Of a DNA stretch of 54,756 nucleotides, positions 2,733 through 18,477 are shown piece by piece. The stretch is from the NCBI RefSeq assembly GCF_018156225.1, contig NZ_JAGTAR010000037.1, forward strand, positions 1 through 54,756, written 5' to 3'. Each line of letters begins with the position of its first letter. Within the stretch, counting starts at the first letter, position 1. Position numbers and translations under genes: made by a program. The notes under the pieces were generated by a model. The model saw only the letters and a program-made list of their open reading frames with translations, did not search any database and was not told the DNA's origin. Source of the stretch: Carboxylicivirga sediminis. GTDB taxonomy: Bacteria > Bacteroidota > Bacteroidia > Bacteroidales > Marinilabiliaceae.

Positions 2733-5048
2733 CTAAGCTCCAAAAACAAGAGCTTCGTCCTTATTGCCGGTTGTGGTTTGAATGGTAAATGTGCAGCTAA
2801 TGGCATCGGCCTTATCGGGGTAATGCATTTCAATCAGCTCAAGTATCATGTAGCCAAACCATTTCTGATTAAAGCCCCGCTTATCGTTAACCACCGATTC
2901 GATAAAACCGAAAAGCTTGGCTATCTCCGATTTTCGCGCATGATCTACATCTATCTTTAAAGCTTTTGATTTGCTGATTTTCTCATCGAAATTGTTAAAG
3001 GCCTTTAAGAGCTCCTGGTAGCTCTTGAGGCTTTCGTCAAAAGGAATACCGCCAAAATAACTTGGCCGATTAACCGGGTTCAGACTAAGCCGGTTTGTTT
3101 CGAAGTTACGCCACTTTTTATAGGATCGGCGATACTTATTGTGTGCAAACAAATTATTGGTACTGCGCGTATTGTAAAAATCCAGGATGGGCTGATAGTA
3201 GAAGTCTTCGCGACTGGCCATACGTGCACTATCCTCATTTTTATTTTCATACACCGATGCGGCCATTGAACGCGCTAAAATTTCGTAGCCCATTGACGAA
3301 CGCATGGCGTTTGCCAGGCATACAAACACCTCCGATGGCACATGCAGCTTACATTCGTATTCTACATCATCACAATGCTTAATCTTATTCCAGAGCTCAC
3401 TTAGTCGCTTCTGCGAGTCGGTGTGGCTAAGGTCGGCCAAAGCGCCCCACACAACTGCCAGCTGGATAAACGCATTTAAATCTTTTACATCGCCCTTCTT
3501 CTTGTTTTTGCGCTCCTTTATGCGTCCTTTGATTTTCCCATCTTCCTTGCCGGCTATCAGAGTGAGGGTGTAATCTAAATCATCGTAATGCAATTCCTGG
3601 GCCGGATGCTTTGTTTCGGCATCCAGCGATATGGCTATTTTAGATTGCTCGGCAAAAACAAAAGCACCCTTTTCTTTCAGAGAAGAAATACTGATGGCTT
3701 TTTTACCATTAACACCTATCTCTTTCTCCTCAACTTCCAGTTCTTTTTGGGTATATGAGCTAAGGGTCCAGTTGCCAATACTCAAACCAAGGGCGAAACG
3801 ACGACTGAATTCCAATCCCTTTTCTGAGAAGTAGTTGTTCACTTTAAATGGTGCATCATCGGCGTCTCTGTGGTGAACTAATAAACTGGCAACTTTTAGC
3901 TTAACCACATCGCCAAAATTCGCCATCAGGAAATCCTGTTGCACAGTTGCTTCGAGCAATACACCTGTAGTCATCGTTTTGCGGTACTCATACTCCAAGC
4001 CTATCTCCACTTTGGCCGAAAGCAGTGCAATGACTTTTTCTTTTACATCAGCTATCTTATCCTTGTATTCGTTGTAATGCGCTTTTAATTCCTCATAGGT
4101 ATCACCAACAAAATCAATCTTTTCAATGATGGTTGCTATCGTTTCATCAGAAAGGTAATCATCAGTTTGTGCAATTAGTTCATCAAGCTCACCAGTGGGT
4201 TTGCCAAGATAATTTTCGTAATACTTATCAATGATCTGAATAATTTTCTCCTTCTCAACATCCAGTGATTCAATTGACACCCCCGCATTAATGCCCAATT
4301 CCTTGCTTGATGATTTGGCTTTCCCAAGCTTAAGCGCAAATACCTTATCTTCCACCTTACGCACCAGGCACTCAAAATTGTCCTCGCGCTTAAACGAGAA
4401 GGAAACACTTATGCTCGGATCGATTGAAACAGGCAGTTGGGTTCCGCTTTTAGTGAGTGTAAACACTGGTGCTAACACTGTAGATAAGAGCTGTACCACA
4501 TCCACATCAATTTTACCACTCACCTGTCCTTTTAAGGCATACGAACAGGCCTCATTGGGTAAAAATCCATCCCAAAATTCAGCCTTGGCCGAGTCATTTA
4601 AAAGGCTTTTAAAGTCAAGTAAATCCTGGTAAACAGCCTCTGAGGTTTTGGTCGATAAATCGTGCAGGCGGTACATCGACACATCCAGCTCTCTGTTGGC
4701 ACCAATTTCAAAACCCAGTATCTCTTTGATACTTCCACCTGCTTTGGCTCTTAATTTAGCACCTATGGAATAGCGCACCACCGCCTGCTCCTTCATCACC
4801 TTTTTGCAGTCGTCATCACTAAGGTAAAATCCATCGAGATCGTCGTTTCTTAAATCATCGGTATTGTTATACACCCATATATTAGCGGCAGCAGAAGTTT
4901 CAAAGTCAAGCACTGCATTGTTTAATAGTGGTACATCAAAACTTCCATTTTTACTGATTTCGGCGTTCTTCAATAGTTGCAATTCTGCCTCATCAAGTGG
5001 CATCAGACCTACCTTGGCGGCCTTCGGAATAAGTGGATATAGATTCAT
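2733..5048 (-). CDS. Large protein of unknown family, 771 aa
   Basis: There is no signal peptide, lipobox or strong membrane segment. Residues about 1-250 look beta-rich with repeated short strands (for example GKIDVDVVQLLSTVLAPVF, SISVSFSFKREDNFE). Residues about 265-350 are strongly helical and charged (DELIAQTDDYLSDETIATII, YEELKAHYNEYKDKI) and probably form a coiled coil. Residues 350-510 return to strands, and a Lys-rich segment (IKGRIKERKNKKKGD) precedes a helical C-terminal third. No family or catalytic motif is recognised. It is the largest product of the cassette, 27 bp upstream of the holin-like gene, so it could be a structural or effector component. This is the least explained large gene in the window. 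Confidence 0.7.
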   Translation of the reverse strand: MNLYPLIPKAAKVGLMPLDEAELQLLKNAEISKNGSFDVPLLNNAVLDFETSAAANIWVYNNTDDLRNDDLDGFYLSDDDCKKVMKEQAVVRYSIGAKLRAKAGGSIKEILGFEIGANRELDVSMYRLHDLSTKTSEAVYQDLLDFKSLLNDSAKAEFWDGFLPNEACSYALKGQVSGKIDVDVVQLLSTVLAPVFTLTKSGTQLPVSIDPSISVSFSFKREDNFECLVRKVEDKVFALKLGKAKSSSKELGINAGVSIESLDVEKEKIIQIIDKYYENYLGKPTGELDELIAQTDDYLSDETIATIIEKIDFVGDTYEELKAHYNEYKDKIADVKEKVIALLSAKVEIGLEYEYRKTMTTGVLLEATVQQDFLMANFGDVVKLKVASLLVHHRDADDAPFKVNNYFSEKGLEFSRRFALGLSIGNWTLSSYTQKELEVEEKEIGVNGKKAISISSLKEKGAFVFAEQSKIAISLDAETKHPAQELHYDDLDYTLTLIAGKEDGKIKGRIKERKNKKKGDVKDLNAFIQLAVVWGALADLSHTDSQKRLSELWNKIKHCDDVEYECKLHVPSEVFVCLANAMRSSMGYEILARSMAASVYENKNEDSARMASREDFYYQPILDFYNTRSTNNLFAHNKYRRSYKKWRNFETNRLSLNPVNRPSYFGGIPFDESLKSYQELLKAFNNFDEKISKSKALKIDVDHARKSEIAKLFGFIESVVNDKRGFNQKWFGYMILELIEMHYPDKADAISCTFTIQTTTGNKDEALVFGA

Positions 5049-5113
5049 GGTATATTTGTTTTTTAATAGCGATTCATCATTAAAAAAAGTACTGTCATCC
5101 CCCTTCTTCTCAA

Positions 5114-5833
5114 CTAGCTTTCAATATTGGCCCGGTCGCTCAGCGACTTTGATAAACGGGCACTGGTCATGCTTGAGTCAATGAGGTTATTCAAATGATT
5201 GACCAGGGCATTTAAAGCATCCGATGCCTTAATCTGCTGCTGTAGTTCAATCATCATTAATAAATTCTTAAGCGCTATAATTAATGGCCTTCGGGTTTCA
5301 GTCAGGGTCTTGTCATTACCTGTATCCTGACTATTGCGCTGTTGCACCAGGCTTTCAAAATGACTTTGATCGGCATTTAGCTCATCCAGCCAGTCAGTGG
5401 CTTCAACTATTGCACAATCCGACTTGAGAGGTTCCTTTCCAAGATCTGTAAGCAGGTTTTGCATAGCAGCCGTTTGCTCCGGGTACGACAAACGATAAAG
5501 CTCATTGCCATATCGCTCGATAACTGCTTTTATGTTATGAGCCGCCTGTTGTTTGCTTTGCTCTTTACGATAAGTACACGCTTCAATATAGTTTTTGAAG
5601 CCTAAAAAACGAAGATCCCGTTCCCTGTCAGCATCATTAATCTTAATAGTAAACGGATTCACATCATCACGTGTTAGAGCCTTATCGAACTCTTGCAAGC
5701 TACTTTCTGATTTCTCAACAAAGCTGCTGAATGGAGTTACATCTATACCGGCCGTTTTAATTATAGCTAATACTTCACGTGCGAATGTATAAAGAACCTT
5801 GTTTGATAATAAGGAATAGGCAATTTTATGCAT
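5114..5833 (-). CDS. DUF6261 family helical protein
   Basis: This 239-aa all-helical, soluble protein has the character of DUF6261, a family largely confined to Bacteroidota with no known function. Features include the N-terminal start MHKIAYSLLSNKVLYTFA, a middle segment RERDLRFLGFKNYIEACTYR, and the C-terminal helices LLMMIELQQQIKASDALNA and LVNHLNNLIDSSMTSARLSK. There are no catalytic motifs. It is the first gene of the minus-strand cassette, 65 bp upstream of the 771-aa gene. A 42-bp tandem array lies about 125 bp further upstream, in the region where the cassette promoter should be. Confidence 0.65.
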   Translation of the reverse strand: MHKIAYSLLSNKVLYTFAREVLAIIKTAGIDVTPFSSFVEKSESSLQEFDKALTRDDVNPFTIKINDADRERDLRFLGFKNYIEACTYRKEQSKQQAAHNIKAVIERYGNELYRLSYPEQTAAMQNLLTDLGKEPLKSDCAIVEATDWLDELNADQSHFESLVQQRNSQDTGNDKTLTETRRPLIIALKNLLMMIELQQQIKASDALNALVNHLNNLIDSSMTSARLSKSLSDRANIES

Positions 5834-5958
5834 GGTATTTTATTTTTAGTTAATAAGTAATAATTACAAAACGTGTCTATCAGGCTGATAGCCCAACATT
5901 TGATTAAAACCAGACAGATGAAGTAGTTTCTGCGACTATTCGAAATACAATTATCAAG

Positions 5959-6200
5959 GGTTAGTGAATTGTTCTGCAAGTTGCAGGACTCTTCCAAAGA
6001 AGCTGGCGAACTGTCCTGCAAGTCTCAGGAGTTTCCCATAAAGGCTGGCGATAAGCCCTGTAAGTCGCAGGAGACTTCCATAGAAGCTGGCGATAAGCCC
6101 TGCAAGTCGCAGGAGACTTCCATAGAAGCTGGCGAACTGTCCTGCTAATTGCGAGAGCTTTCAATAGAAGCTGGTCAATAGCACAGACACTCGTGTAATG
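5959..6200. repeat. 42-bp tandem repeat array (about 5.5 units)
   Basis: The motif AGCTGGCGA recurs at 6001, 6043 (one change), 6085, 6127 and 6169, an exact 42-bp spacing, and a diverged unit begins near 5959. Each unit holds an inverted repeat of the type CCTGC-AAGTC-GCAGG, and the stems vary between units (TCTGCAAGTTGCAGG, CCTGTAAGTCGCAGG). On the minus strand the array is open for 84 codons because 42 is a multiple of 3 (14-residue repeat around LLWKSPATCR), but this is probably chance. 42 bp is four helical turns, so all units face the same side of DNA. It sits upstream of the DUF6261 cassette. Confidence 0.85.
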
Positions 6201-6215
6201 CGAAATGACAGACAC

Positions 6216-6804
6216 GTACTAAATTCTGCCTGGTTTAATATGATTTAGAAAATAAAAATTGAAGGCTTAAGAAGGGGGATTACAGTATGTCAAAGAACGT
6301 TTAAACAGACAATTGCACCTTGCAATAACCTGATTAATACTGTATCCCTATTAGTTTTTTGGAGTTTATCTGGCTAACTATTGCTTCCCGACAACAGTTA
6401 GCAGACAACGATAAGCAATTTACGGTAGGATATTTTAAAGTTCAATAGCCATTGGGAAATATTTTGGTATTATAAGGCTTTATAGCACCATGTTTAAAGT
6501 TTAGAGAATTGATATACAAAGTGAATAGTATCGAAAAAGTTACTATTACAATTACATTCACTTTCTTAACCAATTTTATTAAGCAATAATAGTACCATAT
6601 AATTTTATTACAATTAGCGTGTAATAGATTGCTTTTACTAATTTTAACATGTAATGATTAAGTAAAAAATATACAGTATCTTAAATAGCAATAGAATATA
6701 ACGCAATTAACAAAGTGAAATGCAAAGTGCAAAACCTAAAATTAACATTTAACAGGTTAGACAGTAGATAACAAACAACCTATCACCCTCAATAACAATA
6801 GACT
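6216..6804. other. AT-rich gene-free stretch with a nested hairpin
   Basis: This 590-bp gap has no convincing open frame on either strand. It contains a nested inverted repeat: AAAGTGAAT near 6519 pairs with ATTCACTTT near 6555, and inside it AATAGTA pairs with TACTATT. A second inverted pair, GCTAACT/AGTTAGC, lies around 6373-6403. The remainder is mostly A/T and probably holds the promoter of the gene starting at 6805. Confidence 0.4.
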
Positions 6805-7413
6805 ATGAAACAAATATTTTCAATCTTAGCATTTATTTGCATTTATAACCTTGGTTTTTCTCAACATGATTTTTTATTTGAAAAAAAGTGTCTTGGTGAT
6901 ATAAGAGCACATGAAAAATCGATTAATTCGATTTGCCTTGGATTTGTAAAATATCAAGTTCCTAATGACTTTTTTCAAACAGCTAAAAAAAATCATGACT
7001 ATTACCCATTATGCTATAAGCGAACAAATGATGATTTTTCTCCACAGCTAATAATAAAATACTATTACGATGAGCAGGACTCAACATTACTAGTCACCAG
7101 TTATGACTGGAATATAATGGATCATGTAGATTATCTAAAAACAGATGGAGATAAATTTGAAGTTGAGAAAAAACGAAAGAACGAATACTTGAACAAATAC
7201 AAAACAATTAAGCAAGAACTAATTAATAAATACGGAGAACCAACTACAATCAAAGAAACTATTTCTACGGATGGGTACCTCTACCGCCTAAGCTGGGAAA
7301 ATGGATCTAATAATATTCATGTGTTATTAAATTTTTCTACAAAGTTGAAAACTCTGCTGGGAAATATGAAATTTGGCTTATACAATATTAGAGTAAAGAT
7401 TGAGTATATTTAA
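6805..7413 (+). CDS. Secreted hypothetical protein, 202 aa
   Basis: A signal peptide (MKQIFSILAFICIYNLGFSQ) is followed by a mature part of about 180 residues with many Lys, Asp and Tyr. The base composition is unusually AT-rich, even for this window, which continues from the AT-rich upstream gap and could point to transfer. The middle contains a charged helix (EVEKKRKNEYLNKYKTIKQE) followed by YGEPTTIKETISTDG, a pattern seen in several small Bacteroidota exported proteins. No domain is recognised and no operon partner is evident; the next gene starts 91 bp downstream. Confidence 0.65.
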   Translation: MKQIFSILAFICIYNLGFSQHDFLFEKKCLGDIRAHEKSINSICLGFVKYQVPNDFFQTAKKNHDYYPLCYKRTNDDFSPQLIIKYYYDEQDSTLLVTSYDWNIMDHVDYLKTDGDKFEVEKKRKNEYLNKYKTIKQELINKYGEPTTIKETISTDGYLYRLSWENGSNNIHVLLNFSTKLKTLLGNMKFGLYNIRVKIEYI

Positions 7414-7504
7414 AATCACATGCTAACATGAATGCCCTCGCTCGGTGAAGTAGGTGAGGCCAGTGATTACAAAAAGCAGTTCTAATTAATGCCAAATCTA
7501 ACTT

Positions 7505-8068
7505 ATGAAACAACTTTTTACGCTTTTATTAATCTTTGCCGCAACACTAGGTTTTGCGCAGGAAGAAACATTCAACAGCAATAACGGTTTAATCATTGAT
7601 ATTAAAGGCTCAATCCTCTTTGAATCAGACTTTACCATAGCGCCACTATTGGGTTATAAGTTTGGACGATTCATTGTATTTACCAGCTATGAAAAAGCAA
7701 ATGATGATTTGGAAATGGATATGTCAACCCCTGATGATAATATTCAATATAAACGTGAAGTACTTAAAATAGGTGTACAGATATATCCGCATAAAAATCA
7801 AAAAAAAGTTAAGCTCTTCTATCAGGCACACTATAGTTACAAATGGTCTGATGAAATAAGAGCGTCTGAATATTCAATGATTAATGTAGGGACAGGGATA
7901 CAATATTCAATTACGCATGCATTATCTGCCGGAACCAATGTGTTTATTGGATTTGGCAATGAAAAAACGCCACGGGGTGAGACACTTTTCCCTACCTATG
8001 ACTTGGGTGGGACCATATTTATGCGCTACCATCTTGATTGGTCACATTTCAGAAAATCGGGCAATTAA
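7505..8068 (+). CDS. Probable small outer-membrane beta-barrel protein
   Basis: This 187-aa protein begins with a signal peptide (MKQLFTLLLIFAATLGFAQ). The mature part alternates aromatic and polar residues in short strands with turns (TIAPLLGYKFGRFIVFTSYE, VKLFYQAHYSYKW, SMINVGTGIQYSITHALSAG). It ends with a strand-like segment containing GGTIFMRYHLDW, as expected of a small 8- to 10-stranded outer-membrane barrel. The exact family is not recognised. It converges with the acetyltransferase gene on the other strand; a GC-rich hairpin (8092-8113) lies between them. Confidence 0.55.
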   Translation: MKQLFTLLLIFAATLGFAQEETFNSNNGLIIDIKGSILFESDFTIAPLLGYKFGRFIVFTSYEKANDDLEMDMSTPDDNIQYKREVLKIGVQIYPHKNQKKVKLFYQAHYSYKWSDEIRASEYSMINVGTGIQYSITHALSAGTNVFIGFGNEKTPRGETLFPTYDLGGTIFMRYHLDWSHFRKSGN

Positions 8069-8091
8069 AACCTCCCAGTTTGGCCCCGCAA

Positions 8092-8113
8092 CCACGCTAA
8101 TCCTTTCGCGTGG
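8092..8113. terminator. GC-rich hairpin between convergent genes
   Basis: CCACGC (8092-8097) pairs with GCGTGG (8108-8113) and flanking CGC/GCG bases extend it. No U-run follows on either strand, so it may be a weak bidirectional terminator or an unrelated structure. Confidence 0.3.
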
Positions 8114-8134
8114 CGCGGCATCATGCGGTTACAG

Positions 8135-8917
8135 CTACTTCATCAACTTATCCATTATATTCTCAAAGCGCTTATTACTAATGGGGTGATGGCTAATGAC
8201 CTCACCATTGTAAATAATGCAGAAAGTACCAAAAGCACAGGGTGTGGCCTGCGCAGCTGGTGCATTATCAAGGTCAATTAACTGAGTGGGTACTTTGTAT
8301 TTCTTTTGTGCCGTATCAATAATAGCGTGCACGTTTTTCTCGGTATAGGGGCATTGCGGTGAGCGCAGTATGGCGAGGCCTTCTTTGTATTGTTCCGGCA
8401 TCGTCTGTATGCTTGTTTTAAAGTCAGGAATAGGTGCACTATTGTTGAACTTGTAAACCAATAGCTCAAAGTCGGGCTTAGCTTTTGCCACCACTTCAAA
8501 ACCATTCTTTAAAAACAGCTTATTATCAGCCATAAAAGAGCCTTTGCGCGTTACCACTGCAACACCATGCTTGTGTTGTGCTTTGGCATCCTGCAGGCAT
8601 TCATCGAGCATGGCCGAGGCATAGCCTTTGCCTTTATGCTCCTTTTTAAAACCAACAAACAGGCAGTGGATAAACAGGTAGCCCTGAGCATTAACAGGAC
8701 GATGCGCCAGTTCGCCCGGCAGATATTCAATCATGCCCTGATACGTGCCATCTTCAGCCAGCAGAGCTTTTATCTTTAGTCCTTGCGCATGGTAGGTACT
8801 AAACCATTCAATCTTATTGCGAAGCTCTTTGTGCTTGCTGACATCTTTATAGCCACACACACCATAATCGGCAATGGTTTCAGGCGTCAGGTCAATGATT
8901 TTAAAAGTTGTAGTCAT
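8135..8917 (-). CDS. GNAT acetyltransferase with C-terminal YoaP-like domain
   Basis: Residues about 1-150 are a GNAT N-acetyltransferase: IHCLFVGFKKEHKGKGYASAM provides the acetyl-CoA binding loop (HKGKGYA), followed by LFLKNGFEVVAKA. Residues about 165-260 match the YoaP-like domain found after GNAT modules, with thioredoxin-like features: a Cys in ILRSPQCPYTEKN and the segment TPCAFGTFCIIYNGEVISHHP. Members are annotated as N-acetyltransferases of unknown substrate. The protein is cytosolic. It is divergent from the ubiquitin-like gene, with 342 bp between the two start codons. Confidence 0.85.
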   Translation of the reverse strand: MTTTFKIIDLTPETIADYGVCGYKDVSKHKELRNKIEWFSTYHAQGLKIKALLAEDGTYQGMIEYLPGELAHRPVNAQGYLFIHCLFVGFKKEHKGKGYASAMLDECLQDAKAQHKHGVAVVTRKGSFMADNKLFLKNGFEVVAKAKPDFELLVYKFNNSAPIPDFKTSIQTMPEQYKEGLAILRSPQCPYTEKNVHAIIDTAQKKYKVPTQLIDLDNAPAAQATPCAFGTFCIIYNGEVISHHPISNKRFENIMDKLMK

Positions 8918-9259
8918 GTTAGTGAATTGGTTAGTTTATTCAAATATAGTGAATGTTGCTTAGCTGGTAATGCTAGCCTGCAGTCTATTACTGATGGAGT
9001 TGTCCAAAAACATTACTATTTCTCGCAAAGTGCGCAAAGCTCTCAATAATTACATTCTACAGTTTGGCTCCTTTTCGCAATTCTTAGCGGTGAGATAACT
9101 ATCGCACTTAGCGTGAAACTCTATTTTAGGGCACCCTCATCAATACAATCCACAATAATTGAAAAGAAGCAGAAATTCTTTGCTTATAAAAGGCAACTAA
9201 ACCCGTCTTCATCCGTAGTAAACCAGGTTTATTGTATATCTAATCTAAAATTAACACAC
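8918..9259. other. Intergenic region upstream of the ubiquitin-like gene, with inverted repeat
   Basis: The gap contains an imperfect inverted repeat: TTTCTCGCAAAGTGCG (about 9019-9034) against the reverse complement of CGCACTTAGCGTGAAA (about 9103-9118). Such cgcaaag-type palindromes are frequent between genes in this phylum. An open frame from a GTG at 9113 runs into the ubiquitin-like gene, but it overlaps the repeat arm and is not considered translated. No consensus TAnnTTTG element is obvious. Confidence 0.4.
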
Positions 9260-9799
9260 ATGACAAGCCGAAGAATTGTTTCATTACTACTCCTTTTTAT
9301 ATGGTCAACATCGATATTTGCCATGCAGATTTTTGTAAAAACGGCATCAGGCAAAACAATTACACTTGATGTTGAAGCCAGTGACTCTATAGAAAATGTA
9401 AAGGCTAAGATTCAGGATAAAGAGGGCATCCCTATTGACCAGCAGCAGCTAATTTTTGCGGGTAAACAACTGGAAGATGGACGAACCTTATCGGACTACA
9501 ACATTCAAAAAGAATCGATCCTTCATTTAGTCCTCGGCACACCCACATCCATTGATGACAATACGATTGCATCGATACAGGTTTACCCAAACCCGGTTGC
9601 CGAGCAATTACACATTAAAGGCTTGAAGAATACTAAGGATATAACTTATAGCATTTTTAATTCAACTGGAGAATGTATTACAAAAGGTATCATAACAGAC
9701 AATAAGGCCATAGATGTAAATTCGCTATCTGCAGGTTTATACTTTGTACATTTTAAAGGAGATAATGCTTACACTCCTGTTAAGTTTATAAAAAAATAG
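9260..9799 (+). CDS. Secreted ubiquitin fused to a T9SS type A sorting domain
   Basis: The ATG at 9260 gives a 179-aa protein. Residues 1-21 are a signal peptide ([21 protein letters not shown]), and predicted cleavage leaves the ubiquitin Met1 as the mature N-terminus. Residues 22-92 match human ubiquitin 1-71 with only eight changes (L8A, T9S, E16D, P19A, T22S, P38I, R42Q, T66I). All seven lysines (6, 11, 27, 29, 33, 48, 63) and Ile44, His68 and Val70 are kept. The tail LRLRGG is absent: after Leu71 comes GTPTSIDDN, so C-terminal conjugation is impossible without processing. Residues about 107-179 are a T9SS type A sorting domain ([15 protein letters not shown], final KFIKK), which directs export across the outer membrane. 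No E1, E2, E3 or protease genes are nearby. The frame can be extended upstream to a GTG at 9113, but the signal peptide fixes the start at 9260. Confidence 0.95.
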
Positions 9800-9881
9800 C
9801 AACACATTCATAAGCCACAGTTGCATTAACTATATAAAATAGCCCTGACAGTATTTCAAATCCTGACAGGTTTGTAAGTTC

Positions 9882-9909
9882 AAAAAAGAGGGAGCCGTAG
9901 CTCCCTCTT
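9882..9909 (-). terminator. Terminator of the mannoside operon
   Basis: AAGAGGGAGC (9886-9895) pairs perfectly with GCTCCCTCTT (9900-9909) around a 4-nt loop. The A-run at 9882-9887 becomes a U-run on the minus strand, directly after the last gene of the operon. It may also stop transcripts from the ubiquitin-like gene. Confidence 0.85.
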
Positions 9910-9928
9910 CTGCATTTATATATAATTA

Positions 9929-12900
9929 CTACTTAAGGGGCTCTGGTCCCATTTCCAGCTCCAGCTTGCCACCTTTGAGCAGCTCAGCAGCCGGAAACTT
10001 AAAATCATTCAGTACTTCACCGTTCAGCTTAGCCGACTGCACGTACTTATTCAATCGCGAGGCATTTTTGGCCTCAATTGTAAAGGTATCGCCACGCCCA
10101 TAGCGGCCGCCCAGGTCAATCACCACCTGCTCATACAAGGGGCTGGCAATTTCGTAAACCGGCTCAACGCTGCAGCCTCCATCGGTCTGAAACAAGCCCA
10201 TGGCTGCCATCACAAACCAGGCACTCATCTGCCCCTGGTCTTCGTCGCCCAGGTAGGCATTTGATACGCCATAGCCATAGTAACGATCCATAATGGCGCG
10301 GCTCCATTTTTGCGTTAGCCATGGCTGGCCCACCCAGTTAAACAGGAAGGCAAAATGCATCGACTGCTGGTTACCCTGCACCACCGGATAATCCCAATAC
10401 TGGTCGTTGATGCCATTGTAGCGTGTTTTATCACTTTCTTCAAAGCCCCAATCGAGGCGTTCAATAAAGCGATCCTGACCAATCATTTCGGCTAGTGCAG
10501 GCACATCCTGCGGTACAAAATAGGTCAGCTGCCAGGCATTACCCTCCACATAGTGGTGGTTAGCACCCGATTTATACGGATCAAAGTCGTCTTTCCAATT
10601 GCCTTTGGCATCGCGCATGCGGGCATAGCCCATCTCCTTATCAATCACATTGCGCCAGTTGTAGCCACGCTCTAAAAAGTACTGGTAATCGGCTTCTTTA
10701 CCCAAAGCCTTGGCCAGCTGCGACACCGTCCAGTCATCGTAGGCATACTCCAGCGAATTAGAGAAACGCCCCTCATCGTATGGCACGTAGCCATGCTCAA
10801 GGTAAGTCACCAGGTCGCGGTTGCCGGCATAGCCACCGCCTACCTCCTGCCCCGGTGTGGTTTGCATCTTCTTCACGGCTTCATAGGCCTTCTCCACATC
10901 ATAATCGCGTATGCCCATCTGATAGGCCCCTACAATCATGGGAATCTCGTGTTCGGCCACCATCACCGGGATGTACTCCATGCCTGCCGGTCCTTTGGCC
11001 AGCCAGCCACCGGCATCGTACATGGCCAGCTGCGATTGCACCCAGCGGTTGCTCCACTCCGGTGTCACCAGATTCCAAAACTGGTTAAGGTTCCAGAAGG
11101 TGTTCCAAAAGGCATCGCATCCCAATGCCGGCGATGAAGGATCATCCAGCTGACAGATGTTCTCATCGGCATCACGCCACTGCCCATTCACATCACTATA
11201 GGTGTTACGGCTGCACAGCGAGCGATACATACTGTTATAAAAGCGCATCTTCTCCATGCTGTTGGTAGTGGATATGGTGACGCGGCTCAGGAGCTTGTTC
11301 CACTCCTGCACATGGTTGTTGCGCACCGCTTGAAAATCCCAGCCGAAAGGCTCAGTAATCTCAGTCTGCAGGTTTTCGGCCGCATTGGCAATACTTACAT
11401 ACGAGATACCGGTGCGTGCCTGCACCTGCTTGTTGTCTTTAGTATCAAACTCCACAAAACAACCAGCCTCATCGGGACGCTCATAGCTCATGCTGTTTAC
11501 ATCCAACACCTCATCGTTAATCCAGCCACCCATCTTGGCTATAGGCTGATCAAATTCAATCACAAAGAAGATGATGTACTCCTGATCAATGCCACCTGCC
11601 CAGGTGTTTTCGGTGAGCTGATGACTATAGCCCTCGATGCGGTAATCGCTCACCTGCTTCCATTCAACAGCCAGGTTCTGATACCAGTATTCAGCCGGTA
11701 TATGCAAATCAATCATCACCCGCGACTGCTCATTATCAGGGAAGGTATAGCGCTGAAATCCACAACGTGTGGTGGAGGTTAGCTCCGCCTTGATATTATA
11801 ATCGGTCAACTGAACGCCATAATAACCAATGGGTGCCTCTTCAGTGGTTTTATCAATGCGCGAGCGATAGCCACTGTCAGGGTCGCGCTCATCTCCCACC
11901 TTAATCTGCAGTGGTCCGTTAACAGGCATCATGCCCAGGCCGGCCAGTGTCCATTCATGTATATGACTAAAGCACCCAATAGACTCAAAATTAGGCTCGT
12001 AGCCACCCTGCCACGAGGGATTCTGGTTATCGGGACTCAGCTTCACCATGCTGAAGGGCATCCATGGTCCGGGAGCAATCATCCAGCGCGAGTGGCCGGT
12101 ACCCACCTTCGTATCCACGTATTCGGCCGGTGTAATAAGCGCTTGAGGCTGTCGTACCACTTTGCCTGTTTCAACTTCCTGCCCATCTACACGGATGGAA
12201 TAGGTACTAACCTGTTTCTGGCTAACGGCCGGCATGGGCGCTTCAAACACATAGCGTCCCTTCTCCACCACCTCCTGAAAGATGGGGGTGTTATCCACCA
12301 GCACTTCCAGCTTAGGCAGGTCGTTAAGATGTTCTACATCTACCAGTAATGGCTGATAGTTTTTGCCATCCAGCACAATCTCATACGCAGCCGGCTTGAC
12401 CTCTCGCAAATGGATGTCTTTATCGATGCGCAACTTCACCCCTTTAGACCCTTCCAGGCGAATCTGTCCGTATTTCAACCATGAGCCTTCAAGAGTAGTC
12501 ATCTTGATTTCGTTACCTCCTGTACGCAACAGCTTATGTGGTACAGGTATATCAATGCTATAGCCCGCTCCCGCTTTGGGCAGTTCATCAATAGAGCTGG
12601 CAGCCTTGGCAGGTAACTGGTATTTCCACTCCCTGCCATTAATGGTCACTTTAAATAAGGGCAAATCTTCGGCGTTATAGTCGATTAAATCAACCACCAG
12701 CGTCCAGTGGCCTTTTTTAGGCAACTTATCCACCCCGAACAAAACCGTCAGTGTACTTGAGCGCCAGCCCGAGGTGCCCCAGGTACCGCCCCAGGTATCG
12801 CTGATACCCGGCATAATATAAGGCCAATCGGTTTTGGCATCAGATGTACCTACCAGGTAGTAGGTATCTTCCCACCCAAAATCGTTGGCTATGTAATCGT

Positions 12901-13030
12901 TATACCCATCAGGATACAAAGCAAAATCTGCTCCTGTTTTATCGCCGTCGCCTATTTGCCACACAACATGTTGCGCGTTAGAGTTAAAAGTCAATAAACA
13001 CAGGAACGAGAGTATTACGGATATCTTCAT
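9929..13030 (-). CDS. GH92 alpha-mannosidase with N-terminal lyase-type accessory domain
   Basis: A signal peptide (residues 1-20) is followed by a domain like the beta-sandwich domain III of rhamnogalacturonan lyases (about 22-195: WQIGDGDKTGADFALYP, LVVDLIDYN, NGREWKYQLP). A short Ig-like linker follows, then a GH92 module from about residue 303 to the end (YVDTKVGTGHSRWMIAPGPW, CFSHIHEWTLAGLGMMPV). GH92 enzymes are calcium-dependent inverting exo-alpha-mannosidases. EGNAWQ (Glu about 829) corresponds to the proposed general acid, and GDEDQGQMSAW is the conserved late motif. The usual GNEP motif is GNQQ here, suggesting a linkage preference other than classic alpha-1,2. It is the last gene of the operon, 20 bp after the isomerase-like gene. 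It is likely periplasmic or surface located. Confidence 0.88.
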   Translation of the reverse strand: MKISVILSFLCLLTFNSNAQHVVWQIGDGDKTGADFALYPDGYNDYIANDFGWEDTYYLVGTSDAKTDWPYIMPGISDTWGGTWGTSGWRSSTLTVLFGVDKLPKKGHWTLVVDLIDYNAEDLPLFKVTINGREWKYQLPAKAASSIDELPKAGAGYSIDIPVPHKLLRTGGNEIKMTTLEGSWLKYGQIRLEGSKGVKLRIDKDIHLREVKPAAYEIVLDGKNYQPLLVDVEHLNDLPKLEVLVDNTPIFQEVVEKGRYVFEAPMPAVSQKQVSTYSIRVDGQEVETGKVVRQPQALITPAEYVDTKVGTGHSRWMIAPGPWMPFSMVKLSPDNQNPSWQGGYEPNFESIGCFSHIHEWTLAGLGMMPVNGPLQIKVGDERDPDSGYRSRIDKTTEEAPIGYYGVQLTDYNIKAELTSTTRCGFQRYTFPDNEQSRVMIDLHIPAEYWYQNLAVEWKQVSDYRIEGYSHQLTENTWAGGIDQEYIIFFVIEFDQPIAKMGGWINDEVLDVNSMSYERPDEAGCFVEFDTKDNKQVQARTGISYVSIANAAENLQTEITEPFGWDFQAVRNNHVQEWNKLLSRVTISTTNSMEKMRFYNSMYRSLCSRNTYSDVNGQWRDADENICQLDDPSSPALGCDAFWNTFWNLNQFWNLVTPEWSNRWVQSQLAMYDAGGWLAKGPAGMEYIPVMVAEHEIPMIVGAYQMGIRDYDVEKAYEAVKKMQTTPGQEVGGGYAGNRDLVTYLEHGYVPYDEGRFSNSLEYAYDDWTVSQLAKALGKEADYQYFLERGYNWRNVIDKEMGYARMRDAKGNWKDDFDPYKSGANHHYVEGNAWQLTYFVPQDVPALAEMIGQDRFIERLDWGFEESDKTRYNGINDQYWDYPVVQGNQQSMHFAFLFNWVGQPWLTQKWSRAIMDRYYGYGVSNAYLGDEDQGQMSAWFVMAAMGLFQTDGGCSVEPVYEIASPLYEQVVIDLGGRYGRGDTFTIEAKNASRLNKYVQSAKLNGEVLNDFKFPAAELLKGGKLELEMGPEPLK

Positions 13031-13050
13031 AATATCACTTTTTAAAAAGT

Positions 13051-14814
13051 TTACTTCATGTAGGCTTTAACTACCTTGGCCTCATTACCCCCTTCGTTGA
13101 TGATTTTGTATGCACCGGCAGCAGCTGGAATCACAAACGTTTCGGCGTAATTAAAACGTTGACGCATGCCATTTTGTGTTTCCACAATAATGCTGCTTCC
13201 TTCCACAAGCGACAATACATTACACTTGTTCGCAGTATCAATCTCAATGCTTGAATTGAAATGGTAACGCTCCACGTCATAGGTATGCTTGGCGTGGGTT
13301 GCCAGGTGGTAGTGTTTCCAGTCATCACCTTCGGCCAATAAAGCAGGCTTGGCAACCAGCTTCTCCGTCACATACTCACCTTTACGGTCGAAACACAGAT
13401 TCTCCATACCTCGCTCCACATTAATTGGTCGAGGCTGGCCATCTAAATCCACGCGCAACCAGTCATACATTTTGAAGGTAAAGATGTAGGGCGTGGTGCT
13501 GATTTCAAGCACCAGGTTCTCGGTTCCTGAGCCATGAATCGTGCCCGGAGGAATCAGAAATAAATCGTGCTTATGGCTGTCGAGCACCTGCACGTGTTTG
13601 GTAATATCAATTGGCTCCTTATTATCGAAGCTGTACTTTAAATCGGCCTCAAACCCTTTCGGATCGATAGACTCCTGGAAGCCCAGGTAGCACTTCGCAT
13701 CCTTACCGGCATCCAGTATGTAATAGGTCTCTTCCTGCGTAATGGTTTCGCCAAAGTGCTGCTGTATATAATCCACCTGCGGATGGCATTGAATGGAAAG
13801 GTTGCCCCCATCGAATGTATCCAGAAAATCGAAGCGAAGAGGAAACTCATACATAAACTGCTCGGCATGCTGCCCCATCACCGCCTTATACTCCTGAAAC
13901 ATAATAGAATCGAAAGACACCTCCAGCATCAGCCCATCGCTTTCGAACAGCAGACCATTCTCCGGCACAATCAGTTCAAAGGACCAGGCGTAGTTAATCA
14001 CATCCGGATTCAGCTGCTTGATTTTGTCTTTGATCCATTGACCGCCCCAGGCCCCCGGCTCAAACCACGGACGCACACGAAAAACGTTTTGCGCCATATT
14101 GTGTAAGCCCTGGCGAAGCTTATCGCCACTCATCCATACCAGCTCTTCGGTTTGTTGACCGTCAATCACTATATCAATAGCAGGCAATAACACTGCCTTG
14201 TGACTGTTGAGCACCACCCAATCGACAAAATAAAAGCGTTTGTACATCACCTTACCGGCAGCTGGCTCCTCAGCTCCCAGGTTACATACCGATTTGGCAC
14301 GCGCCCTGAACTGCAGCTCATTCTTAGGCAGATCGACATACACCAACAGGCCTTCAGCACCTGATAAAGCCGCACCCGGCCCGTAAATAATGTTGATATC
14401 CGCACTGGCATCCAGCGGCAGGTTCTTCAGCTTTTCCTCCTGATAAAAGTCTTTTAACTGCAAACTGGTGCGCTTGCCGAAAATGGGGTCGTCACCACCC
14501 AGGAAAGGCGCAATCATAGCATCAATCACATTAGACGGCTTTAAGGCCTCCTGCATTGAGATGCTGTTAACCACCTTACCTTTCTGGCGAAGTGCTTCTT
14601 CCAGCTCCTTTACTATCTCCTCGTAAAATACACCCACATAACCATCAATAATGATTACTTTCTCATTGGCCATGCGCTCAACCAATGCCTTGCTACCTGC
14701 CTGAATAGCACCTTTATCCAACCTGGCGGTTGGATAAAGATCATAATTCCCTTTAGTTACATTTGCCTTCTGCAAAGGCAGTAAAAACTGTTTTGTTTCC
14801 CTTATCTTACTCAT
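13051..14814 (-). CDS. Mannose-6-phosphate isomerase-like protein with degenerate kinase-like N-terminus
   Basis: At 587 aa this is much longer than ordinary ManA (about 320-400 aa). The C-terminal half is a class I phosphomannose isomerase cupin: [10 protein letters not shown] (about residue 340) gives the Gln/His zinc ligands, [10 protein letters not shown] a Glu, and [10 protein letters not shown] (about 428) the last His. These interconvert mannose-6-P and fructose-6-P. Residues about 40-230 resemble a phosphoribulokinase/uridine-kinase fold, but the P-loop position reads [14 protein letters not shown] without the GK(S/T), so this part is unlikely to be an active kinase. Its start overlaps the stop of the preceding glycosidase gene. 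It supplies the step after the ROK kinase in the same operon. Confidence 0.8.
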
Positions 14815-16112
14815 TACTCTTCAATAACCTGTTCCAACATTTCAATTGCCTTATACAGCACACCAGCCGAACCACGGAAAGTACCTGAACCGGTAGGTTC
14901 GTTATTCACCGTGTACCACTCAAAGAAACCATCGTTCTTCACCACACGCTCAGTCATTGGTAACAGCTGCTCATAGGCTTCCTGGTAGAAACCGTAGTCA
15001 ATCAGCTGCTGTATTATACGTGCCCCAAACCAGGTCCAGTCACCACCATTCTGGTAGCCATAAGGGTACATGCCCTTGTTCTCGAAGAAACCTTCAGGAT
15101 ATGGTGGGTACATAGTCAAACCAATAGAACCTGCACCTGATGCTTTTACATTGGCAATCATCTTATCCAGTGATATTTTGATTTGCTCATTACTCAGTAA
15201 ACCGGCCTCGATGGCAACGGCCGTACCTCCATGATAATAAATCTCGTTCTCGTCAAAATCAGCCGGGAATGGCGAACCATCGAGGTACACGTGTGGGATG
15301 AACTTGTCATTCTCCGTATCCCACAGGTGAAGCATGGTATTTTGGGCCAATCCATCGCGAATGGGTTCCCATTTGGCTTTTGACTCAGGCACTATCTCCA
15401 TCATGTTATTCAACGCAATGATGAACATGGCATTGTCGTAGATATCCAAGCTAAACTTGGTATCCTCATCGATGAAAACACCCCATGGATGACTTTGCTG
15501 CACATCGCCCCAGTCGGCAGTAGTAGCACCCCAAATCAAACCATACTCATTGCTCCAGCGATGATTTAACAAGAACTCCATTGCCCATTCCATGCGCTCG
15601 GCTACTGTTTTATCGCCAATCTTCTCTTTTAAGAAAGCGGTATCGCCTGTTTTGGTAACATACTTGTAAACGGCCTGCACCAATGATGTCTCATGGTCGG
15701 TCTCCACATCGTTTTTATGACCGCAATAGGTAGGTTCCAGCTCATTGTAGTAATACGTGTAGCCCCCTTCGGATTGAACTGCCTTACTTTGAGGAATAAA
15801 ACCATCAAGAATATTGCCATCGTCACCTTGTAAACGGAAGAAGACGCGCAGGTTTTCCTTCAACTCATCGTGTGGATACACTTCGGCCGACAATTCGATA
15901 AAGGTATTGTAATCGCGAATCCACACCTCACCGTAACCATCACCGGCATTAAACCCGGTCTTAACCACTTCCAGTGCCTTCGTTTTAACAAACTTGAAAC
16001 TCTCATTGGTCTGAATAGATGTCTTTAACTCTTCGCTCACCTTTGGAGCTTTTCCACATCCCATTAAAGCAATGGCCATGAGGCCAATCATTAGTTTATT
16101 TCTCATTGTCAT
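14814..16112 (-). CDS. Lipoprotein (alpha/alpha)6-barrel glycosidase, family unassigned
   Basis: The N-terminus [20 protein letters not shown] carries a lipobox (LMGC, Cys19), so the enzyme is anchored in a membrane. The body is helical with glycosidase-like motifs: [39 protein letters not shown], and a C-terminal [16 protein letters not shown]. The WIRD motif recalls the WLRD of GH125 alpha-1,6-mannosidases and related (alpha/alpha)6 families (GH63, GH15), but the overall match is not good enough to name a family. The operon context points to a mannoside or mixed-linkage glycan. The start overlaps the end of the GH92 gene by 17 bp; a second ATG at 16106 would remove two residues. Confidence 0.7.
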
Positions 16113-18477
16113 ATAATGTTTCTGTTGTTTTTTCTAATTCAATAAACGCACCGTTCACCAGGTCTTTAAAGGCCACTTCGTACTTATCAAGCTTCTTGCC
16201 ATTGAGCTTTGCCGACTGCAGCAACTTATTGTCTGGTGTGTTGTTTTTTGATTTGATCACGATTTGTTTCCCAGAGTAATAATCCGGATTGAGGCTGATG
16301 CACACCTCATCAAAAGCCGGACTGCCAATCTGCATGGTTGGTACTTCATTGGTTAAGCCAGCTACATCGAACAAGCCAATGGATGCCATTACGTACCAGG
16401 CACCCAGCTGTCCCTGGTCTTCATCCTGCCCGTAGCCATAGCCATGAATAGGATTAGTACCATAAAACTCATCGCAGATGGTGCGTGTCCAGTACTGTGT
16501 TTTCTCAGGCTGACCAGTGAAGTTGTATAGCCATGAGATGTGCAGGCTGGGCTGGTTACCATGATTATAAATGGTTTCCACACCCGCAAAGGCATCAATT
16601 TCGGTACCACCGCCAAAGTTATTGGCGCGCGACGAGAGGAAAAGCGTATCCAGTCGTTCCACAAACTCAGCTTCCCCCATCTTATCTACCAATTGCTTGA
16701 TGTGATGGGGTATATAAAAACTGTACTGCCACGAGTTGCCTTCCTGAAATCCTCTCCAGGCCTGAAATGGTTTAAAATCAGAAATAAAGTTGCCCACACT
16801 GTCCCTGGGGTGAATAAAACCACTCTCTTCGTTAAAAATATATTCCCAGGCCGATGACAGCTCTTTCAATTGTTTGTATTCTTTTAGCTGTCCCAGTGAT
16901 CTGGCCATCTGTGCCACGGCATTTGCACTAAATGAATACTCGAGCATGTGAGAGGCACAAAAAGCTGTAGCTTCGGGTATATCACCCCAATCGTCGGTAT
17001 GCGCGATGTAACCATTCTTCACAAACTGTTCCACATCAAGCTTTCCCGCTCCCATGGGTCGGTTTTTCCATTCCAATTCGTTCTTGAGAGCCGCCTCAAG
17101 GGCCAAATTAACATCGTAATTACGAATGCCACAATTATAGGCCGCTGCAATGATAAGTCCCACAAAGTTGGTACCCACACCCGATACGTAGCGGCTGTTA
17201 GCCAGGCCATCGCCCAACCAGCCCGTATCCTTATATACCAGCAAGTGCGACTGCACATAGTCGTTATAGTACTCAGGCCAGGCCAATGCCCAAAGCTGTG
17301 TCAGGTTCCAGAAAGCGCCCCATATAGCATCGGTGTTATAGAAATTATATTCAGGTTCACCGGCTGCATTCAAAGGAATTTGCCCAACTGAACCATCATT
17401 CTTGGGATAAGCCCCGTTCACATCACTGGCTAAGCCACGCCCCAGTATAGCATGGTATAAGCCCGTGTAGAACTTAGTCTTATCAGCCTCAGTGCCGCCC
17501 GACACCTTTATTTTATTCAGTTCATTGCCCCATATTTCCGTGGCTGCCGCTTTGGCATTATCAAAACTTAAGCCTTCGCTTGTGCGATTAAGGCGGGCAT
17601 TGTCAATGGATGTGTAGGATAAGCCTACCTGTATTTCCACCTGTTCGTTTGCATTGGATTTAAATGTTACATAAGCCCCCGCACCTTCACCACTGATTAG
17701 ATCAGCTCCTGCATAAACGGTATCACCTCTGAACATCCCAAACTCATCAATTGCCCGGTCAAGCTCTGCAGAGAAATAAATATCGATGAAAGCGCCGCTT
17801 TGGTATTTCTTCACATACTCAGGCTCTGTTCTCACCCATCCTTCAATGGTGTTGGTGCCTGCTTTTCGTACCATGGCATCCACTACTTTACCGCTTTCGC
17901 CTTGCCTGCGACCAATATCAAATAAAATATGAGCATGCTCACTCTGCGGGAATGTATAACGATGAACGGCCACCCGCTTAGTGGATGTCAGTTCGGCTTT
18001 GATGCCATAATCATCCAGCATTACACTATAATACCCTGGCTGTGCCACTTCATTTTCTTTTGCAAAACGTGAGCGATAGCCCGCATCCGGCTCTTCCAGC
18101 AAGCCTGGTTGAGTCAACAATTTCCCAACAGTAGGCATCATGGCAATGCCTCCCACCTGGAATTCATGCACATTAACAAAGCTCTCAATGGAGGTATGCC
18201 TGTCATCGTAGCCCACAGCTTCCCAACCCCATTTATTTCCATAATGCCCGTTGGTTGATGGTGCAGGCTTGGCCATCCCGAAAGGCTGTGCTGCCGGTGT
18301 ATAAAAAAACCAGCGACTATGAGCCGTTCCAATATTCGGATTGACATAGTCATAAGCCGCCTTTTCCGATTTGTTACAGGCAAACAGAGCCGTTGCCAAT
18401 AAGCCGGCTGTGACGAATCGCTTAATCCTTGTTGATATGTTTGAACATATGTATAGATACATCTTTATTTGATTCAT
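16096..18477 (-). CDS. GH92 family alpha-mannosidase lipoprotein
   Basis: This 793-aa GH92 enzyme has YVNPNIGTAHSRWFFYTPAA at the start of the catalytic module, then SFVNVHEFQVGGIAMMP. The general-acid motif is EGNSWQYSFYIPHH, and GYGQDEDQGQLGAWYVMAS lies near the end. As in the other GH92 of this operon, GNEP is replaced by GNQP. The hydrophobic segment VTAGLLATALFAC supplies a lipobox (Cys34), giving a membrane-anchored enzyme. The stretch before it (residues 1-21) is unusually long, and codons 10-15 are formed by a perfect copy of the operon's palindromic operator (18435-18450). No better ATG or GTG lies downstream of the operator. It starts 5 bp after the permease gene. Confidence 0.88.
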   Translation of the reverse strand: MNQIKMYLYICSNISTRIKRFVTAGLLATALFACNKSEKAAYDYVNPNIGTAHSRWFFYTPAAQPFGMAKPAPSTNGHYGNKWGWEAVGYDDRHTSIESFVNVHEFQVGGIAMMPTVGKLLTQPGLLEEPDAGYRSRFAKENEVAQPGYYSVMLDDYGIKAELTSTKRVAVHRYTFPQSEHAHILFDIGRRQGESGKVVDAMVRKAGTNTIEGWVRTEPEYVKKYQSGAFIDIYFSAELDRAIDEFGMFRGDTVYAGADLISGEGAGAYVTFKSNANEQVEIQVGLSYTSIDNARLNRTSEGLSFDNAKAAATEIWGNELNKIKVSGGTEADKTKFYTGLYHAILGRGLASDVNGAYPKNDGSVGQIPLNAAGEPEYNFYNTDAIWGAFWNLTQLWALAWPEYYNDYVQSHLLVYKDTGWLGDGLANSRYVSGVGTNFVGLIIAAAYNCGIRNYDVNLALEAALKNELEWKNRPMGAGKLDVEQFVKNGYIAHTDDWGDIPEATAFCASHMLEYSFSANAVAQMARSLGQLKEYKQLKELSSAWEYIFNEESGFIHPRDSVGNFISDFKPFQAWRGFQEGNSWQYSFYIPHHIKQLVDKMGEAEFVERLDTLFLSSRANNFGGGTEIDAFAGVETIYNHGNQPSLHISWLYNFTGQPEKTQYWTRTICDEFYGTNPIHGYGYGQDEDQGQLGAWYVMASIGLFDVAGLTNEVPTMQIGSPAFDEVCISLNPDYYSGKQIVIKSKNNTPDNKLLQSAKLNGKKLDKYEVAFKDLVNGAFIELEKTTETLYDNEK
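18434..18451. promoter_or_regulatory. Predicted GntR operator, internal copy
   Basis: ATATGTTTGAACATAT is a palindrome with 7-bp arms around TG. Its 14-bp core TATGTTTGAACATA is identical to the site in front of the gntR gene at 21344-21361. It lies inside the first codons of the GH92 gene, implying either an internal promoter or a roadblock site. Confidence 0.7.

Follow-up and report, generated by a model that had tools for sequence, protein, structure and literature searches.

A ubiquitin domain joined to a type IX secretion sorting domain in Carboxylicivirga sediminis, and its secreted-looking bacterial relatives

Introduction

Ubiquitin is taught as a hallmark of eukaryotes and, as far as our searches show, the secreted bacterial ubiquitin in print comes, among the matches listed, from one gut species. 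A 54,756-nucleotide stretch of Carboxylicivirga sediminis DNA (contig NZ_JAGTAR010000037.1, positions 1 to 54,756; hereafter, the window) contains a gene in which a nearly human ubiquitin is set between two bacterial export elements, raising the questions of where such a protein would go, how it came to be in this genome and what it could act on. A literature search, drawn mostly from papers outside subscription, returned no ubiquitin-T9SS protein and no wide bacterial ubiquitin family among the matches listed.

A ubiquitin domain between two export elements

The open reading frame at window positions 9260–9799 (plus strand) encodes a 179-residue protein of three parts, namely a putative signal peptide, ubiquitin and a sorting domain of the type IX secretion system (T9SS), type A (Table 1). 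The putative signal has a hydrophobic core and ends in IFA directly before the ubiquitin methionine, as read by eye and from alike junctions in relatives. The ubiquitin part equals human ubiquitin in 63 of 71 residues, the substitutions being L8A, T9S, E16D, P19A, T22S, P38I, R42Q, and T66I, and all 7 lysines (K6, K11, K27, K29, K33, K48, and K63) are present. The place of R72 to G76 is taken by GTPTS, and the RLRGG needed for E1 activation and conjugation is absent. Comparison of the sequences thus confirmed the 63 human-equal residues and the 7 retained lysines of an earlier, sequence-only reading of this DNA, and likewise bore out its replacement of the Gly-Gly tail by a linker and a sorting domain; its placement of the signal end right before Met1 is supported by visual inspection and by the way in which relatives are joined at this point.

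Table 1. Parts of the ubiquitin gene and the segment that holds it (window positions).
Feature	Position	Strand	Basis
Putative Sec signal peptide, 21 residues, IFA end abutting ubiquitin Met1	9260..9322	+	By eye; like junction in relatives
Ubiquitin residues 1-71 (protein residues 22-92)	9323..9535	+	PF00240 (Pfam): E 1.9e-28, residues 24-92, 98.5 bits against a cut-off of 25.4, profile positions 1-69 of 72; 63/71 equal to human
Linker replacing the RLRGG tail; TPTS common to L062	9536..9580	+	Sequence comparison
T9SS type A C-terminal sorting domain (residues 108-179)	9581..9796	+	PF18962 Por_Secre_tail (Pfam): E 1.8e-14, residues 108-177, 54.2 bits against 27; TIGR04183 (NCBIfam): E 3e-13, residues 108-179, 49.5 bits against 23
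Variable segment holding the ubiquitin gene	6475..9843	.	Different sequence (1.56 kb) at this place in G007, a genome of the same genus

Identity to solved chains at this level implies a beta-grasp fold for the ubiquitin part. Judged by its missing RLRGG, and by R42Q besides, the protein is a ubiquitin domain but no protein modifier. L8A and R42Q, to which the sequence-only reading does not refer, affect functional surfaces of ubiquitin, L8 and R42 being among the residues of the main binding patch and of the E1 contact. The genome (5.8 Mb in 133 contigs, completeness 100, contamination 3.16) contained 1 ubiquitin match. An E2 profile search of the same genome gave no match, but its positive control was also without any match, and the search is hence uninformative.

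The fusion in other genomes, and ubiquitins of the Bacteroidota

A search for other ubiquitin-T9SS fusions, as the sequence-only reading had advised, found 4 more (L062, L060, L059, and L132) and brought the total to 5, each with a sorting domain above the Pfam cut-off. The three-part plan recurs, down to TPTS at the junction, in the sibling L062/L090 (genome G029, Marinilabiliaceae bacterium MAG16), which belongs to a different genus of the family; the ubiquitin part of this sibling stands at pS 0.85 and pN 0.12 from that of C. sediminis and carries the substitutions L8P, I44V, and V70I. An assembly error, for which absence from relatives together with uneven read coverage had been named as the sign, is ruled out by the same protein and junction in another genus. 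Eukaryotic contamination or a chimeric assembly was rejected on the grounds of this sibling, the fusion to bacterial parts and the 89% to 95% likeness of the flanks in G007.

Ubiquitin matches were found in 1/14 genomes of the genus, 6/71 of the family, 4/393 of the order, 2/395 of the class, and 6/395 of the phylum, these samples overlapping and each count including the C. sediminis genome itself. The Bacteroidota genome searches yielded 15 sequences, 2 of which (L090 and L099) are also among the best 80 loci of the wider scan described below, with 23 to 67 of 71 residues human-identical and from 7 lysines down to 1 retained. The signal abuts Met1 in 11 of the 15 (12 with L091, read by eye), down to an identity of 38/71 in L094, and L096, L114, and L115 do not fit this pattern. 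Two arrangements in this group are of a different build. A secreted-looking protein of the same family (L091:1360-2496, genome G059) has 4 diverged ubiquitin repeats in tandem, matched as 4 stretches by Pfam and resembling polyubiquitin. In a one-contig genome of the same class (G386), 2 bare secreted-looking ubiquitins are adjacent (L113:3893-4183 and 4524-4817), with genes for an ABC transporter upstream and a dihydrolipoamide dehydrogenase downstream, as judged by eye; one of the pair ends in RTPPCN, a Cys near the end being also reported for BfUbb, the ubiquitin of Bacteroides fragilis.

Probable export by the type IX secretion system

The C. sediminis genome encodes SprA (2637 bits) and 1 protein with a C25 peptidase match (357 bits), taken here as the PorU-type peptidase; neither profile matched any of 14 control genomes. 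In addition, 29 further places in the genome resemble mainly the C-terminal half of the ubiquitin protein (17 with E of at most 0.001, the rest with E no higher than 1) and are candidate T9SS domains. Because of SprA, the C25 peptidase and these 29 matches, export of the ubiquitin protein by the T9SS is likely. In known T9SS type A cargo, mostly enzymes and adhesins, the sorting domain is cut by a PorU-type peptidase and the remainder is joined to surface lipopolysaccharide or released. The C. sediminis protein resembles such cargo (TIGR04183, PF18962) in having a putative signal and a C-terminal sorting domain in a genome with SprA and a C25 peptidase, and differs in that the cargo is ubiquitin.

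We propose that Sec would export the precursor and that the signal would be cut after Ala-21, leaving ubiquitin Met1 as the mature start, as the sequence and the junction in relatives suggest. The T9SS would then move the protein over the outer membrane and the PorU-type peptidase would remove the sorting domain, whereupon the linker would be joined to cell-surface lipopolysaccharide or the protein released. Outside the cell, the folded ubiquitin core would act through noncovalent binding, E1 activation not being expected in a protein without RLRGG. Surface display, or shedding, of a ubiquitin that would escape conjugation is in our estimation highly probable. Both corresponding proposals of the earlier reading find support at the sequence level, that of a protein outside the cell with an authentic ubiquitin N terminus in the signal, sorting domain, SprA and C25 peptidase, and that of a C terminus incapable of conjugation in the missing RLRGG.

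Secreted-looking ubiquitins across bacterial phyla

Scanning genome_contigs yielded 377 confirmed matches. The best 80 were examined and are labeled to many phyla, the species labels on metagenome-assembled genome (MAG) records being possibly wrong. We read 68 of the best 80 of 377 as secreted, 64 by a simple script that required a run of hydrophobic residues with small ones at −1 and −3, and 4 by eye (L027, L046, L057, and L074). Alanine occupies −1 in 54 and −3 in 44 of the 64 script-positive loci. The 12 loci not counted as secreted include 8 with RLRGG and some that look eukaryotic (polyubiquitin in L010). Record titles without MAG among the 68 name Verrucomicrobia bacterium IMCC26134 (a complete genome), 3 Dyella, Ruminococcus albus 8, Paracidovorax valerianellae, Cohnella, 2 Saccharibacillus, Conexibacter, Rhodoferax lacus, Loktanella, Pseudohaliea rubra, and Rhodopirellula maiorica.

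Together with the C. sediminis protein, the 68 form set A1 (69 proteins, a few of them cut by contig ends). Pfam matched ubiquitin in 69/69, and the export parts that it recognized were autotransporter barrels (24 proteins), T9SS domains (4) and SLH (S-layer) domains (4); NCBIfam matched IPTL-CTERM in 3, the remaining proteins having other or no recognized parts; in some relatives, fn3, Ig, SdrD-type, or repeat domains follow the ubiquitin. We count the occurrence of unrelated export parts on one cargo in favor of display, and ubiquitin appears to have become linked in different lineages, on separate occasions, to export of type V, of type IX, by the S-layer and of CTERM type (possibly sortase).

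Several members depart from the common plan. The ends of L019 and L032 look like those of sortase substrates by eye, and L076 and L079 stop at LRL. A signal followed by a full 76-residue ubiquitin with RLRGG and nothing more is encoded at L029:5905-6228 (Dyella sp. OK004) and in L133 near 3001 (an IMG/VR contig). Four loci with actinobacterial labels (L034, L068, L082, and L089) have ubiquitin without a clear signal, in some cases with extensions that look alike by eye. Mobile-element records contributed few matches: 3/72,556 plasmid records and 10 loci of mixed kinds in viral contigs. One of the viral contigs, with a DnaB-like helicase gene, encodes a signal-less ubiquitin heading an unknown protein (L142:3001-3741). 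Plasmid records of Pseudoalteromonas (NZ_CP077771.1 and CP076682.1) have a ubiquitin-like stretch (48% to 50% identity) inside Ig-like or tandem-95 proteins, and an R. albus 7 plasmid record already bears the label “ubiquitin family protein.”

Selection on the ubiquitin core

In set A1, conservation averages 0.93 over residues 1–71 and falls to 0.74 at R72, 0.46 at L73, 0.29 at R74, 0.23 at G75, and 0.17 at G76, the figure for the core being inflated by the ranking of the best 80 by likeness to the query and the tail lying outside the query. The Gly-Gly pair is present in 5/69 proteins, all 7 lysines in 60/69 and the complete L8/I44/H68/V70 set in 55/69; identity to human ubiquitin averages 92% over 64 loci. 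Within A1, lysines showed no significant advantage in conservation over other polar residues (p 0.057).

Across 2346 A1 pairs, the median pN was 0.090 and the median pS 0.892 (Nei-Gojobori counts, own script). Ubiquitin had a lower pN than its own extension in 45 of 46 alignable pairs, the exception being L036/L081, and in 11 of 12 disjoint hand-chosen pairs (p 0.003). Little-saturated pairs mostly gave a ubiquitin dN/dS of 0.02 to 0.17, and the pair L011/L017 gave 0.57 for ubiquitin, above the 0.11 of the extension; with pS at or beyond saturation and GC differing between loci, all these rates are rough. The GC content at third codon positions (GC3) of ubiquitin tracks that of the flanks (rho 0.85, 64 loci). 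Because near identity persists while synonymous sites are saturated, the likeness to eukaryotic ubiquitin is best explained by selection inside bacteria, as opposed to recent eukaryotic transfer. The sequence-only reading had favored such a transfer, against which stand the pS and pN of the sibling and the width of the family. Nor did the ubiquitin tree that it had suggested lead to a eukaryotic donor: in a tree made by a quick method (89 rows, 71 columns), 0 of 86 inner branches were starred, and label changes numbered 15 against 15.9 in shuffles, with 145/500 shuffles as low. No donor lineage could therefore be named from this tree, nor from the nearest solved chains, which differ too little.

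Probable arrival in C. sediminis

The ubiquitin gene lies in a segment that we regard as variable because conserved flanks enclose other DNA in G007, the locus of which (L130) matches window positions 5054–6474 (89% to 94%) and 9844–11200 (95%) with no match between; the replacement DNA has 2 open reading frames of its own. Besides the ubiquitin gene, the segment holds 2 small open reading frames, exported-looking by eye, and an acetyltransferase gene, which together with its upstream sequence to position 9040 is found at a different place in genome G004 (91%). The right flank is a glycoside hydrolase family 92 (GH92) cluster, and GC3 is 0.59 in the neighboring GH92 gene but lower in the ubiquitin stretch (0.38) and lowest in the linker and sorting domain (0.30). 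The stretch beside the ubiquitin gene (9929–18477) encodes 2 GH92 proteins and a GH94-superfamily match, and at the edge of the segment (5966–6180) a repeat recurs about every 42 bases, G007 having a larger number of copies (L130:3176-3766). A promoter and terminator scan scored no better than shuffled sequence, a search of the window for further copies of intergenic stretches found none, and a search for a phage origin gave 0 matches in 50,697 phage records.

Within the genus, the gene is present in the C. sediminis genome only (1/14), and it is probably a new arrival in the species. Because the sibling has the same signal-ubiquitin-T9SS plan, the nearer source was probably another bacterium, from which the gene would have been delivered ready-made.

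Discussion

What would a displayed ubiquitin act on? The most likely targets would be ubiquitin-binding or deubiquitinating proteins of eukaryotic cells that come into contact with the bacterium or take it up, since it is for these that selection would keep a near-unchanged ubiquitin surface, and we accordingly hypothesize an action on the ubiquitin enzymes of eukaryotic neighbors. A eukaryotic target, and with it the explanation as a whole, is nevertheless held tentatively, at somewhat less than an even chance. Several observations count against it: the altered main binding patch in this lineage (L8A and R42Q here, and the 3 changes of the sibling), which may allow it to bind other partners; the lysines of set A1, without a significant excess of conservation; the pair L011/L017, in which ubiquitin has the higher dN/dS; the Bacteroidota sequences that descend to 23/71 identity and a single lysine; and the action of the tested relative BfUbb on bacteria. 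Among candidate targets, we place eukaryotic ubiquitin-binding proteins first and bacteria second.

BfUbb is said, in a report of 2024, to act on a peptidyl-prolyl isomerase. According to a 2017 paper, which calls B. fragilis one of a few bacteria with a ubiquitin gene, the secreted BfUbb begins with Met1, is devoid of Gly-Gly and has an inhibitory effect on some other strains of B. fragilis, and the synthetic mature protein gives a zone of inhibition from as little as 250 ng (PMC5705921). Another study describes recombinant BfUbb as inhibiting ubiquitination in vitro and as joining human E1 in a covalent complex, which was absent under reducing conditions (PMC3352274); B. fragilis itself is reported to be without E1 and E2. 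The C. sediminis protein, also from the Bacteroidota, resembles BfUbb in the putative signal abutting Met1, the missing Gly-Gly and a gene in a variable region, its export being predicted here, whereas BfUbb is a bare protein of 76 residues with 63% human identity and a Cys end, and the C. sediminis protein combines 63/71 identity with a T9SS type A domain. A secreted effector of the plant-parasitic nematode Globodera rostochiensis likewise joins ubiquitin to a signal and a C-terminal extension and acts outside its producer, but that producer is eukaryotic, and the 12-residue extension is cut off in the plant and is no export domain (PMC5705921).

The likeness to BfUbb makes an antibacterial agent, a secreted ubiquitin that binds some molecule of related strains and thereby inhibits them, the foremost alternative, although we think it unlikely. 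The shared start at Met1, predicted for C. sediminis, and missing Gly-Gly are joined by a variable gene on both sides, BfUbb being found in 13/97 genomes (PMC5705921) and the C. sediminis gene in 1/14 genomes of its genus, and a review lists an oyster ubiquitin without the 2 glycines as bacteriostatic (PMC10892293). Yet bovine ubiquitin was inactive on the B. fragilis strain tested (PMC5705921), and the C. sediminis protein lies nearer to bovine ubiquitin than BfUbb does. Anchoring by way of the sorting domain would also hamper diffusion, and the 69 aligned proteins, a sample biased toward likeness, have kept the eukaryotic sequence to a far greater extent than a repurposed toxin would seem to require.

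Less probable still is a passive role, in which ubiquitin serves as a stable small domain, tip or spacer of surface proteins and is constrained by folding alone. The presence of ubiquitin at the N terminus of surface-type proteins that are otherwise unrelated, and that in some cases continue into fn3, Ig, SdrD-type, or repeat domains, would suit such a role, as would the 4 tandem repeats of L091 and the strongly diverged members among the 15 Bacteroidota sequences; folding, however, hardly accounts for the lysine set complete in 60/69, a 92% mean human identity at saturated pS and the sharp drop at the tail. A recent eukaryotic capture fused by chance to export parts, without settled function, is very improbable: the human identity, the 1/14 genomes and a GC3 that suggests a segment incompletely adapted to the genome speak for it, but it is largely contradicted by the same fusion and junction in a sibling of another genus with a ubiquitin pS of 0.85, by a GC3 that follows flank GC over 64 loci and by a ubiquitin that changes less than its own extension.

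The secreted-looking ubiquitins may, on a reading to which we give rather less than half our belief, constitute a class of surface protein that has gone unrecognized in bacteria of many phyla. In this class, a nearly unchanged, nonconjugatable ubiquitin would serve a general mimicry aimed at protist, fungal, algal, or animal neighbors, and selection would preserve its eukaryotic surface on account of the eukaryotic partner. The data suggest that a wide range of bacteria, from the environment and the gut, export ubiquitin by unrelated routes, with the conjugation tail mostly gone. The purpose of extracellular ubiquitin would thereby become testable, and natural tail-less variants of ubiquitin would be gained.
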